In this document: positions 2,358 through 6,069 of the stretch, piece by piece
Position numbering within the stretch: position 1 is the stretch's first letter
How the letters are laid out: every line of letters starts with the position of its first letter
Origin: an uncultured Rubrobacteraceae bacterium
GTDB lineage: Bacteria > Actinomycetota > Rubrobacteria > Rubrobacterales > Rubrobacteraceae
DNA length: 13,008 bases
NCBI GenBank assembly: GCA_902806015.1
Contig: CADCUZ010000047.1
Span: forward strand, 1 to 13,008
Reading direction: 5' to 3'
Notes under the pieces: model-generated
Databases searched by the model: none
Told to the model about the DNA's origin: nothing
Seen by the model: the letters and a program-made list of their open reading frames with translations, nothing else
Position numbers and translations under genes: made by a program

Positions 2358-2502
2358 CGCAGCCGGGTTTCTTTTTCGCTCAGCGGTGGTTATAGTCCAT
2401 TCTGATTTTCAAGACAGTTTCGGAAAGTGGGGTTCTCGGACCTCGCCCTGAGGAGGTTCTCGGAAGTTTGCAGCTTTTAGAAACATCCAAGCAACCGCAA
2501 AA

Positions 2503-2542
2503 ATCGTTAGTTTTGGGGATACGAAGATCGTTAATTTTGGGG
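2503..2542. repeat. Two 16-bp direct repeats, 24-bp period
   Basis: ATCGTTAGTTTTGGGG (2503-2518) and ATCGTTAATTTTGGGG (2527-2542) differ at one base and start 24 bp apart. On the minus strand they read as CCCCAAAA-T/C-TAACGAT. Possible roles are a protein-binding tandem site or the multiple terminal repeats of a decayed insertion element. Neither is proven. Confidence 0.55.
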
Positions 2543-2599
2543 TTATCGTCGTACCCCAGTCGCTGTGAGACACGGGGATGCCTACCCGAGAACCACAAG

Positions 2600-2686
2600 A
2601 TACGCTGAATGTCCGATGCGGTGAACCACGGCGTATGCGCTCACATTCCCGTCTAGGTACGAAATACGCCGATCGGCCGATGCGGT
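2600..2686. repeat. Pair of 23-bp imperfect direct repeats
   Basis: The segments 2600-2622 and 2664-2686 both begin ATACGC and end CCGATGCGGT, matching at 19 of 23 positions, with a 64-bp period. A GCGTAT (complement of ATACGC) lies between them near 2633, so each copy could also take part in an inverted structure. Function unknown. Confidence 0.5.
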
Positions 2687-2825
2687 CATTCTTGCTGCTT
2701 TCTATCATCACGTTTGCTGTAGCCGTGCCTGCAGATGATAGGAGAATTCAGTAGCGTGCAGTGTGCCTTTCATACCGAGCATACAATCCGTGCAACTGAA
2801 GCAGACCGTCACGGCCCGCACACAA

Positions 2826-2837
2826 GCACGATCGTGC
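2826..2837. promoter_or_regulatory. Perfect 12-bp palindrome, possible operator
   Basis: GCACGATCGTGC is a perfect palindrome about 215 bases before the ribozyme. A TATAC-like sequence at 2844-2848 follows it and could be a -10 box, but no convincing -35 was found. A dimeric regulator of the glmS transcript could bind here; this is inference from symmetry alone. Confidence 0.25.
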
Positions 2838-2859
2838 GAGATCTATACGCTTCTTCACT

Positions 2860-3050
2860 AGGAGGATAGGAGAAAGAAAAAGAAAAAACTGGCATAGGCA
2901 GTTTGGCTACCGAACAGCGGGGACCACCGGTTCCTTAACGCTGCTGCGGTCACGCGAGAGGAGACGAAAAGGGAGAAACCTGTGTAGGGAAGAGACACCC
3001 GGTAGGCACGACGGAGTGGTCGGGGCTTGCGGGACGGAGAGACGAATACA
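2860..3050 (+). promoter_or_regulatory. Structured, purine-rich leader upstream of the glmS ribozyme
   Basis: No gene is visible. A purine tract (2860-2888) is followed by an inverted repeat AAACTG/CAGTTT (2886-2891, 2899-2904). Then comes a longer hairpin in which outer arms CAGCG and CGCTG enclose GGGACC, loop ACC and GGTTCC (about 2916-2943). Read on the minus strand, AAACTG/CAGTTT followed by a T-rich tract resembles a weak terminator. The glmS transcript must start upstream of 3051 for the ribozyme to work, so at least part of this belongs to the 5' leader. No known riboswitch class was recognised. Confidence 0.35.
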
Positions 3051-3200
3051 AGCGCCAGGGCTCCCAGGACGCAAGTCCGCAAAGCGGGAGTCGACGAGGG
3101 AGACGTTTATCGAGTTATTCGGCGGGTGCGTCTCGGCTTCGGGCGGTCGATAGGGCGGCGACAAACCCCGGCAGCAACGCCGGGCACAAAACGCCGTTCG
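3051..3200 (+). ncRNA. glmS ribozyme: glmS ribozyme (GlcN6P-activated self-cleaving riboswitch)
   Basis: The sequence begins AGCGCCAG, the conserved cleavage-site segment, with cleavage expected between A3051 and G3052. GACGAGG (3093-3099) and TTTATCGAGTTATTCGGCGG (3106-3124, approximate) match the catalytic core of Bacillus and Thermoanaerobacter glmS ribozymes. Helices can be drawn by eye: P1 GGCTCCC/GGGAGTC (3059-3065, 3086-3092), with an extra GGAC-GCAA-GTCC hairpin inside it; P2 GAGACG/CGTCTC (3100-3105, 3129-3134); P4 CCCGGC/GCCGGG (3167-3172, 3179-3184); pseudoknot P3.1 GGGCGGCG/CGCCGTTC (3153-3160, 3192-3199). P3 is less clear (about 3134-3149). Known role: GlcN6P, the GlmS product, acts as cofactor for self-cleavage, and the cut mRNA is degraded. 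The class is best known from Firmicutes. The 3' limit is approximate. Confidence 0.92.
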
Positions 3201-3205
3201 GCCCG

Positions 3206-3228
3206 GGCAGGACTACTACGATCCTGCC
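3206..3228 (+). other. GC hairpin between ribozyme and glmS, possible attenuator
   Basis: GGCAGGA (3206-3212) pairs perfectly with TCCTGCC (3222-3228) around a nine-base loop and is followed by a pyrimidine run (CTCCTTTCTCTTC). The tract is too C-rich for a strong intrinsic terminator. It could be a 3' structural extension of the ribozyme or a barrier that shapes decay of the cleaved mRNA. Confidence 0.3.
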
Positions 3229-3269
3229 TCCTTTCTCTTCGCCCTAAAAGACTTCGCCCATGGAAAATG

Positions 3270-3274
3270 GGAGG
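3270..3274 (+). promoter_or_regulatory. Ribosome binding site that fixes the glmS GTG start
   Basis: GGAGG lies 7 bases before GTG 3282. The ATG at 3276 is only one base away and too close to be used. CCCAT (3257-3261) can pair with ATGGG (3267-3271) and would cover part of this site. Confidence 0.75.
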
Positions 3275-3281
3275 TATGCTC

Positions 3282-5123
3282 GTGTGCGGCATCGTGGGTT
3301 ACGTTGGCAGGGAGCGGTGCGTAGAGGTGCTCATGCGAGGTCTCGCGCGCCTGGAGTACCGCGGTTACGACTCGGCGGGTCTTGCGCTGCAGGGCGATGG
3401 TAGGATAGAGCCCATCCGGCAGGTCGGCCGGCTGGAGAACCTGGCCAGGGCCGTCGCCGCCAGAAACGGGCACCTCTCTACGAGCCGGACCGGCATCGGG
3501 CACACCCGCTGGGCCACCCACGGCCGCCCGAGCGAGGAGAACGCCCACCCGCAGCTGGGGGGCGCCGGCGCCGTGGCCGTGGTCCACAACGGTATCATCG
3601 AGAACTTCCAGGGGATCAGGGCCGAACTTCTAGAGCGCGGCGTCCGGTTCGAGTCCGAGACGGACACCGAGGTGATAGCCCACCTGCTCGCCGAGAGGGT
3701 AGAGGCGAACCCGGGCGAATCGCTGCGCGGGGCGCTCTCCGCGGTGCTGGAGAGTTTAGAGGGCTCTTTCGCGGTCGCGGCCGTGGGGGCGAGGGAGCCC
3801 GGCGTCGTCGTCGCGGCCCGGTACCAGAGCCCGCTCGTGGTTGGGCTTGGGGAAGGCGAAAATTATCTCGCGAGTGCCGTGCAGGCGCTTCTTGGCGAGA
3901 CGCGTGAGTTCCTCGCCGTGGAGAACGGGGAGGTCGTGGAGATCAAGGGCGACTCGGTCGGGATCTTCACGCGCGGCGGCGAGCCGGTGGAGCGGGAGCC
4001 GTTCAAGGTTGACTGGGACGCAGAGGCCGTCGAGCTCGGCGTCTACGAGGACTTCATGATGAAGGAGATCCACGAGCAACCAGAAGCCCTCCGCGCCACC
4101 CTCTCTGGCCGCCTGGACACGGACGGCCGAGTGGATCTCTCCGAGACGGGCCTCGACCTCTCGGGTATAGACCGCGTCGTAGTCGTCGCCTGCGGCACGG
4201 CCCTCCACGCGGGCCTGCTGGGAAAGGGCCTCGTCGAGCGCCTCGCCCGCCTCCCGGTGGAGGTCGCCGTCGCGAGCGAGTACCGCTACGCCGAGCCCGT
4301 CGGGGACGAGATGACCCTCGTCGTTGCCGTGAGCCAAAGCGGGGAGACGACGGACACGCTGGCCGCGGTGCAGGCGGCCCGCGGGTTCGGCGGCAGGGTG
4401 CTCGCGGTGACCAACACGCGCGGCTCGCTCATCACGCGCGAGGCCGACGCCGTGCTGCTCACGGAGGCGGGGCCTGAGATCTGTGTCGCCTCGACAAAAG
4501 CCTTCGCCGCCCAGGTCGCCGGTCTAAGCCTGCTCGCCCTTGAGCTCGCCCGCGTCAAAGGGACATTGCCGGAAGAAGATATCCTCGCTTTGGGCCGGGA
4601 CCTGCGTCGGGCACCGGAGAAGGTGGCGGCGACGCTCGCCTTGCTGGAGGGGAGAATCGGGGCGGCGGTCGAGCTCTTCGGAGACGCGCGGTGCTCGCTC
4701 TTTCTCGGGCGCGGCCCCGCGTTTCCGGTAGCACTAGAAGGGGCTCTGAAGCTCAAGGAGATCTCCTATATCCCCTCCGAAGGCTACGCCGCCGGCGAGA
4801 TGAAACACGGCCCCATAGCCCTAGTGGACCAGCAATGCCCCGTCGTCGCCATCCTCGGGGAGGGTGTCTTGCGCGAGAAGACCCTCTCCAACGTCGAGGA
4901 GACCGTCGCGCGGGGCGCCAACGTCATCGCGGTCGCCCGTGAGGACGACCCGGCGTCGGCACGTGTGGGTCGCGTCGTGCTCCCCGTGCCGGACGCGCCC
5001 GAGATCCTGCGCCCTCTCGTCTGGAGCGTGCCGCTGCAGCTTCTTGCCCACGACGTCGCGACCGAGCGCGGCCTCGACGTGGATAAGCCCCGCAACCTCG
5101 CGAAGAGCGTGACCGTGGAGTAG
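3282..5123 (+). CDS. glmS: Glutamine-fructose-6-phosphate aminotransferase (isomerizing)
   Basis: GlmS converts fructose 6-phosphate and glutamine to glucosamine 6-phosphate, the entry step to UDP-GlcNAc for peptidoglycan. The GTG at 3282 puts Cys at residue 2 (M-CGIVGYVG). This cysteine must become the N-terminal nucleophile after Met removal, so longer upstream starts are ruled out. The N-terminal glutaminase half shows EYRGYDSAG, GHTRWATHG and HNGIIEN. Two SIS domains follow, with ACGTALHAG, VSQSGETTDT, CVASTKAFAAQ, SEGYAAGEMKHGP and the canonical C-terminal DKPRNLAKSVTVE. At 613 residues it is close to the usual ~600-610. It is expressed from a transcript carrying the glmS ribozyme, so product feedback is expected. 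The upstream frame stays open through the ribozyme and should not be translated as protein. Confidence 0.98.
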   Translation: MCGIVGYVGRERCVEVLMRGLARLEYRGYDSAGLALQGDGRIEPIRQVGRLENLARAVAARNGHLSTSRTGIGHTRWATHGRPSEENAHPQLGGAGAVAVVHNGIIENFQGIRAELLERGVRFESETDTEVIAHLLAERVEANPGESLRGALSAVLESLEGSFAVAAVGAREPGVVVAARYQSPLVVGLGEGENYLASAVQALLGETREFLAVENGEVVEIKGDSVGIFTRGGEPVEREPFKVDWDAEAVELGVYEDFMMKEIHEQPEALRATLSGRLDTDGRVDLSETGLDLSGIDRVVVVACGTALHAGLLGKGLVERLARLPVEVAVASEYRYAEPVGDEMTLVVAVSQSGETTDTLAAVQAARGFGGRVLAVTNTRGSLITREADAVLLTEAGPEICVASTKAFAAQVAGLSLLALELARVKGTLPEEDILALGRDLRRAPEKVAATLALLEGRIGAAVELFGDARCSLFLGRGPAFPVALEGALKLKEISYIPSEGYAAGEMKHGPIALVDQQCPVVAILGEGVLREKTLSNVEETVARGANVIAVAREDDPASARVGRVVLPVPDAPEILRPLVWSVPLQLLAHDVATERGLDVDKPRNLAKSVTVE

Positions 5124-5213
5124 GGACCGAGTCAGAGGACACACGAGGATAGCGTTCCGCGCCTTCCCTCTTGGTGTGGCGGCAATCCGCGTTTCGTCCA
5201 CCGCGGTTGTATC

Positions 5214-6069
5214 TTGGGCTTACTTCATACTCGAACCGCCACGAACTTTTGTTACCGGGCGGTCGTGGGGCAGGCCGGGGAGGGGATCCTGCTCGTGGAC
5301 GTCGGCACCAAGCGCGTGCGCGAGGCCAGCGCCGCCTACCGGGGCATGCTCGGCTACGCCCCAGAGGAGATCTCGCCCCTTACGCTCTACGACCTCGTCC
5401 CGTACTCGCGGGGGGCCATGGACTGCTCTGCGTCGGGCGCGTGCGGGAGGGCGAGCCCTGCGTCAGCGCCGAGCGGCGCCACCGGCGCAAGGACGGCTCG
5501 CTGGTCACGACGTCGAGGCGAGGATGAACGTGATCTCCTACGGGGCAAGGAGGCCCTTTGCGTCGTGGTCGGCGACATTACCGAGCGCAAGCGCGCCGAA
5601 GAGGCCCTGCGCGAGGTCAGGGAGGGGGAGCGCAACCGCATGGTCCGCGACCTCCACGACGGGGCGCTGCAGGATCTGACCTACGCCCTCGCCGAGGCGC
5701 AAGATCATCCGGGTCCTCTCTGAGGACCCCGGCTTAGACGGGAGGCTGGACGACCAAATCGGGGCCCTCAGGCGCACGGAGCGCCGCCTGCACGTCGTCC
5801 GACACCTGCCCTGGGCGAGGGGGAACAGGCCGCTGGCCGGGCTCCTGGAAACGCTGGTGGACGAGAGTCGGTGCATGTTCACGGGCTGCGAGGTGCGCCC
5901 GGCCGTCGACGGCGGTCCGCCGGAAGCACCCCCGGCGGAAGGCGACGATGAGGTTCTGCGCATCCTGCGGGAGCCGCTGTCGAACGCCCGGCGGCACTCC
6001 GGGCCCGGCAAGGTCCTCGTGGCCGGCAGGGCCAAGGGGACGGACGTGGTGATGCGCTGCCTCGGGTGA
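5214..6069 (+). pseudogene. Frameshifted PAS-domain sensor histidine kinase relic (NarL/HisKA_3 type)
   Basis: Pieces of one sensor kinase appear in order but in different frames. PAS core YRAVVGQAGEGILLVDVGTK through LTLYDLVPYSRGAMD is in one frame (to about 5420). The continuation GRVREGEPCVSAERRHRRKD is in a second, and DVEARMNVISYG in a third. The first frame then returns with GDITERKRAEEAL and the dimerisation/phospho-acceptor box RNRMVRDLHDGALQDLTYAL (His in DLHDG). The coiled region and ATPase N-box (ILREPLSNARRHS, near 5970-6000) lie in another frame from about 5701. The DxGxG part of the ATPase domain is missing and the frame ends TGA at 6069. Intact relatives phosphorylate a LuxR-type response regulator; none is encoded here. 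At least four frame changes and a lost 3' end make function very unlikely. Confidence 0.85.

Follow-up and report, generated by a model that had tools for sequence, protein, structure and literature searches.

A probable glmS ribozyme leads into glmS in a Rubrobacter-like actinobacterium and belongs to a class-wide feature of Rubrobacteria

We analyzed a 13,008-nucleotide stretch of DNA from an uncultured Rubrobacteraceae bacterium (the window), in which a glmS gene and its leader are arranged as follows:

3040..3209, + strand: predicted glmS ribozyme, whole match to Rfam family RF00234 (90.9 bits with the Rfam model; 156.7 bits with R1, a model made from Rubrobacteria sequences that include this one)
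3269..3274, + strand: Shine-Dalgarno-like GGGAGG, 7 nt 5' of the GTG start
3282..5123, + strand: glmS, 613 amino acids, with a likely GTG start leading into M-CGIVGY and an in-frame ATG at 3276

The encoded protein scored 739 bits against TIGR01135 (cut-off 418) and 766 bits against NF001484, and contains a glutaminase domain and two SIS stretches. Among the best 80 of 586 loci, it is 70% identical to GlmS of a Rubrobacter sp. MAG, 67% to that of an Actinobacteria bacterium MAG, and ~52% to that of other Actinobacteria; against two class members, identity reaches 86.1% (L109, genome G025) and 85.5% (L094, genome G028) over 476 residues. The ribozyme match ends 76 nt 5' of the GlmS cysteine codon. 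The genes acpS, nnrD and alr lie downstream of glmS, and glmM was not found within the window. No sigma-70-like promoter was found in 2500-3400. We detected three terminator-like sites, two overlapping at 2671-2698 (+) and one at 3067-3055 (-), and found none between the ribozyme and glmS. Upstream of the ribozyme, positions 1518-2357 hold a gene of the HGSNAT type (heparan-alpha-glucosaminide N-acetyltransferase catalytic). Just 3' of glmS, positions 5171-5723 hold overlapping ORFs, one of which matches PAS and HisKA_3 weakly, at scores under the Pfam cut-offs; this stretch looks like a broken or frameshifted sensor kinase gene.

When all Rfam families were compared with both strands of the window, RF00234 was the sole match at the gathering threshold. 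The match spans the full model (positions 1-167 of 167) with E = 2e-20, against a curated cut-off of 37 bits, and chance is thereby excluded. An earlier note on this DNA, made from the letters alone, had proposed a glmS ribozyme before glmS in a Rubrobacter-like actinobacterium, and this significant, full-length match bears the proposal out. The conserved segments that it named, AGCGCC, GACGAGG (3093-3099) and ATCGAG..TTCGGCGG (3109-3125), are all present, and its helices P1, P2 and P4 and pseudoknot P3.1 can indeed be drawn, as can P3 and P4.1, from the Rfam alignment, covariation and P3.1 scoring. The matched RNA, at 65% G+C, contains these elements:

3051..3052, + strand: predicted self-cleavage site, with A(-1) at 3051 and G(1) at 3052, placed by the position of AGCGCC and the A-1/G1 numbering convention for glmS ribozymes found in the available part of PMC11602151
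3059..3065, + strand: P1, 5' strand (Rfam match, minimum-energy fold, covariation)
3067..3078, + strand: extra P1 hairpin, GGAC-GCAA-GUCC (minimum-energy fold; variable among relatives)
3086..3092, + strand: P1, 3' strand (Rfam match, minimum-energy fold, covariation)
3093..3099, + strand: core strand GACGAGG, unchanged in all 38 Rubrobacteria rows
3101..3105, + strand: P2, 5' strand (100% of cells paired; 2 of 5 pairs changed on both sides)
3110..3113, + strand: core UCGA strand, 5' side of Rfam's inner helix (invariant)
3119..3125, + strand: core UCGGCGG strand, P2.1/P2.2 region (Rfam match; invariant)
3129..3133, + strand: P2, 3' strand (covariation analysis)
3134..3149, + strand: P3 hairpin, CGGCU ... 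GGUCG (Rfam match, covariation analysis)
3138..3144, + strand: P3.1 pseudoknot, 5' strand UUCGGGC, whose first base could instead serve as the final base of P3
3153..3159, + strand: P4, 5' strand (4 of 7 pairs changed on both sides; 92.3% of cells paired)
3163..3165, + strand: AAA of the P4 internal loop (IL4 purine stack), invariant; the correspondence to IL4, whose role in the glmS ribozyme is treated in the available part of PMC11602151, is our own mapping
3167..3184, + strand: P4.1 hairpin with a GCAA tetraloop at 3174-3177 (alignment, covariation analysis)
3186..3190, + strand: ACAAA, opposite side of IL4 (fully or almost invariant)
3193..3199, + strand: P4, 3' strand (covariation analysis)
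3201..3207, + strand: P3.1 pseudoknot, 3' strand GCCCGGG (P3.1 pairing scores)

We aligned the window with 37 relatives from the class (38 rows, 37 of them distinct) and applied the Rfam helices to this alignment. The core columns at 3051-3057, 3093-3099, 3110-3113 and 3118-3125 are invariant in the 38 rows, and the window possesses the core strands and A-1/G1 site that define membership of RF00234. Residues singled out as critical in the available part of PMC11602151 appear, by our own mapping, to keep the same letter in the window. The strands of the P2.2 pseudoknot do not vary in Rubrobacteria and leave no covariation signal to read.

Covariation among Rubrobacter relatives, which the earlier note had named as a check, was found both in the helices and in P3.1. 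Across the aligned helices, 97.5% of 1295 cells are paired, and 11 of 35 pairs have changed on both sides (two in P1, two in P2, four in P4 and three in P4.1). None of 500 shuffles equalled the real alignment on any of five measures, and sliding the partners by 1-3 columns lowered pairing to 34.5-50.6%. P4 is the weakest of the six helices by fraction of cells paired. Two helices are uninformative on covariation: Rfam's inner core helix is invariant, and in P3 just one of five pairs changes, on a single side. Because the position of P3.1 after P4 shifts by a base or two, we scored this pseudoknot separately from the alignment. Its mean pairing score was 7.00 with each sequence's own partner versus 6.28 with the partners of others, and none of 200 permutations did as well. 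The window can form seven P3.1 pairs, and at least four are possible in 37 of 38 rows; L093 has three, the best-scoring pairing is a shifted, different one in L083 and L084, and L101 and L103 are one base short.

Taken as a whole, the leader does not fold with unusual stability (z = -1.22; 23 of 200 shuffled sequences matched it), and its unconstrained minimum-energy fold departs in places from the ribozyme fold. The evidence for the ribozyme is homology and covariation, not stability. When 3056-3093 is folded to minimum energy (-17.1 kcal/mol, z = -3.25), the extra GNRA-capped hairpin that the earlier note placed on P1 does form. The P1 tip differs in length and sequence across Rubrobacteria, so we regard this hairpin as a local elaboration. 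Compared with the glmS ribozymes of Bacillus subtilis and Thermoanaerobacter tengcongensis (RF00234), the window shares helices P1-P4 and P3.1, the core strands and the downstream gene, and differs in its G+C content, the extra P1 hairpin and a closing A.C mismatch at P4.1.

Sequence, structure, covariation, position before glmS, conservation across the class and the presence of RNase J in the class are what this analysis shows. We conclude that the leader is almost certainly a bona fide glmS ribozyme, with cleavage and dependence on glucosamine-6-phosphate (GlcN6P) expected from the known family, and that this well-supported element is probably functional. By analogy with that family, GlcN6P, when plentiful, would act as a cofactor bound in the folded core, and the leader RNA would then cut itself between A3051 and G3052. 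The cut mRNA, with its 5'-hydroxyl end, would decay, most likely through RNase J, and less GlmS would be made. According to the available part of PMC3997798, RNase J1 of B. subtilis breaks down the glmS mRNA fragment that carries the 5'-OH after the cut. Of 39 Rubrobacteria genomes, 37 have a match to the RNase J family TIGR00649 above the cut-off; the remaining two have a partial match (G024) and only a weak one (G007). So do 9 of 14 control genomes at the cut-off, and the presence of RNase J thus permits the mechanism without arguing for it.

Two other readings of the leader concern its function. The fold might have decayed or been repurposed and no longer cut: the window has the extra P1 hairpin, an Rfam score below those of all 37 relatives (93.7-114.9 bits) and a mismatched A3173.C3178 pair closing the P4.1 tetraloop, the sole departure at that pair among the 37 distinct rows. 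Against this, the core strands are the same as in the 37 relatives, the GNRA loop is retained and, as noted above, the mapped critical residues appear unchanged, which makes loss of cutting very unlikely. A second layer of control, in which a hairpin between the ribozyme and the start codon masks the Shine-Dalgarno site, was suggested by long complements to that site in some Rubrobacteria, such as TACCTCCTC in L090. We rejected such a hairpin 3' of the ribozyme, which showed no excess over shuffles and strikes us as barely credible: over 38 leaders the longest complement averaged 5.26 nt versus 5.13 nt after shuffling, and only two leaders had a complement reached by 10 or fewer of 200 shuffles (136 of 200 in the window).

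The glmS ribozyme is a class-wide feature of Rubrobacteria, not an oddity of one genome. Of 39 genomes of the class, which is that of genome G001 and was taken as Rubrobacteria, 37 carry a single RF00234 match above the cut-off. The distance from the end of the match to the GlmS cysteine codon is 66-237 nt in these genomes and the window. The other two genomes, G021 and G037, give no evidence of a loss of the ribozyme: neither yielded a full-length glmS, the GlmS search giving only weak partial domain matches there (best E values 6.7e-24 and 1.4e-20).

Outside the class, stricter filters gave a match in 75 of 396 Actinomycetota genomes (37 Rubrobacteria and 38 others), a sample drawn from a larger group, so this fraction is not a prevalence. 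The 38 other loci lead directly into glmS in 34 cases and into glnA in four. Nine actinobacterial copies had seemed not to precede glmS; five of these precede a CGIMGY-type GlmS that our pattern had missed, and four have glnA first. Ribozymes of the same RNA class stand before glmS in other Actinomycetota, including the Acidimicrobiia locus L064 and genomes G226 and G175. We did not find one in a Collinsella genome (L057) or in a Solirubrobacterales MAG (L032). The latter carries a c-di-AMP riboswitch (RF00379, 77.5 bits, L032:1925-2088, - strand) ~3 kb from glmS.

In Chloroflexota, RF00234 matched in 62 of 201 genomes, 54 of them over the cut-off and five of these 54 above 90 bits; the Ktedonobacterales genome G399 was taken as belonging to this phylum. 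These RNAs, for example that of Ktedonobacterales locus L065, are of the same class as the window's, mostly score lower with Rfam and, in the two loci examined, have a different gene neighborhood. Two genomes (G573 and G605) have two matches each, the second in G573 below the cut-off. Nine Chloroflexota ribozymes (L194-L198, L201, L203, L204 and L207) score 80-102 bits, and the GlmS-like proteins behind them are strongly diverged, on a long common tree branch. A genome titled Proteobacteria bacterium (Centralia_MAG_377; L066, G404) came from the same phylum draw and groups with Ktedonobacterales in GlmS trees; its title is probably wrong. Among 14 control genomes, two had a match: Bacillus subtilis and Deinobacterium chartae.

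We then asked how the element came to Rubrobacteria. GlmS trees were built from hand-picked loci, with 11 of the 38 Rubrobacteria in a first set and 8 of 38 in later sets, by short searches without bootstrap. L146 (on a short contig) was left out of all trees and L200 (209 amino acids) out of the second set; the nine long-branch Chloroflexota rows were kept in the second set and dropped from the third. Ribozyme-less Actinomycetota were represented by 30 loci, the best matches from 54 genomes (two of them Rubrobacteria) picked among 321 without a ribozyme match. Two sets placed Rubrobacteria beside ribozyme-less rows that include a Solirubrobacterales genome (support 86 and 89), and the third, with 55 rows, placed them next to ribozyme-bearing Chloroflexota (support 88). 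Other ribozyme-bearing Actinomycetota are scattered over several separate GlmS clades. A single late gain with one glmS lineage inside Actinomycetota was rejected, as it would make one clade of the 25 ribozyme-bearing rows (p-AU 0.0001). One clade of all 43 Actinomycetota rows was neither supported nor rejected (p = 0.237).

Gene order gives a second line of evidence. acpS, nnrD or alr recur downstream of glmS in Actinomycetota with and without the ribozyme. In other Actinomycetota the ribozyme lies downstream of glmM (38 of 38 loci), whereas glmM was found upstream in none of nine Rubrobacteria loci, within limited flanks. Five of these nine, the window, L001, L002, L152 and L154, have the HGSNAT-type gene upstream of the ribozyme. 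Among the 30 ribozyme-less loci, glmM lies within ~1.5 kb upstream of glmS in 15, and several, such as L057, show none of glmM, acpS, nnrD and alr. With actinobacterial queries, none of these four genes was found near glmS in five ribozyme loci from Bacillota or Chloroflexota. The actinobacterial gene order favors a native glmS and is still compatible with gain of the leader alone.

The earlier note left the choice between old inheritance and transfer open. This choice can be narrowed; the rarity it implied was overstated. Horizontal transfer to Rubrobacteria, with glmS or as the leader alone, from a donor such as Bacillota or Chloroflexota, would fit the lack of a ribozyme at most actinobacterial glmS loci: among the best 80 of 586 loci, R1 detects the ribozyme with an E value no higher than 3e-8 in eight, of which three (L001, L002 and L064) belong to Actinomycetota. 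It would also fit the 55-row tree and five Chloroflexota ribozymes that score 102-105 bits with R1, on a par with the best other Actinomycetota (up to 109.6 bits). We rejected these scores as a guide to origin, finding them uninformative; among 58 loci, R1 also failed to detect L150 and L151, which belong to the remodeled low-GC kind described below. Grouping Rubrobacteria GlmS with Bacillota ribozyme rows is rejected (p-AU 0.0044), and the Solirubrobacterales-type arrangement seen in the two other sets, when forced on the third, raises the likelihood by 12.7 units over the Chloroflexota tree (p-AU 0.854). Together with the order of acpS, nnrD and alr, these results make transfer unlikely. The class-wide ribozyme, the several separate GlmS clades and the actinobacterial gene order favor old inheritance with losses, which we consider likely, with transfer from Chloroflexota or gain of the leader alone as the alternatives. 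By old inheritance, the element has probably been present since at least the common ancestor of Rubrobacteria, inherited within Actinomycetota and later lost elsewhere.

In light of these findings, the glmS ribozyme looks less like "a Firmicutes device with outliers" and more like a recurrent regulator in GC-rich Actinomycetota and in Chloroflexota; the view of its mechanism is unchanged. The 38 covarying GC-rich sequences form a set for studying the fold, and ancestral presence versus loss becomes a testable question. A 2011 survey by McCown and co-workers reportedly counted 463 such RNAs across Gram-positive bacteria and Deinococcus-Thermus, those of Deinococcus-Thermus being said to have extra core stems. 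We claim no first report, as Rubrobacter copies may already figure in that survey or in Rfam; the useful addition is the class-wide conservation in Rubrobacteria. Our literature search found no paper in which the glmS ribozyme and Rubrobacter occur together. Papers that mention both this ribozyme and Actinobacteria do exist; the available parts of PMC2258182, PMC3766115 and PMC9495176 do not name Rubrobacter.

The four Actinomycetota copies that precede glnA form a remodeled low-GC kind, with 33-34% GC in the match and 50-62 bits against RF00234 (L145:4037-4279, L146:3653-3890, L150:3130-3372 and L151:3574-3806, from genomes G205, G395, G073 and G096, respectively). AGCGCC is replaced by AGCGCA in three and by AGCGAA in L151, UCGG is replaced by UCAG, and two hairpins are added within the core. 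Within their class, 4 of 40 genomes have a match. Each copy follows glmM and precedes glnA, which encodes a type I glutamine synthetase; the glnA product in L145 scores 524 bits against TIGR00653, and the same protein start can be read in all four loci. Three of the loci extend far enough to reveal the gene after glnA, and in each it is glmS. Judged by title or the opening of the abstract, none of the papers found to mention both the glmS ribozyme and glutamine synthetase deals with such an operon. We tentatively suggest, as a possibility somewhat short of an even chance, that the glmS ribozyme is ancestral to the glmM-glmS operon of Actinomycetota, kept in Rubrobacteria, Acidimicrobiia-like and other deep lineages, lost in Actinomycetia and Coriobacteriia, and remodeled before glnA-glmS in one low-GC lineage. 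If this is true, GlcN6P would restrain the supply of glutamine as well in the low-GC glnA-glmS lineage.
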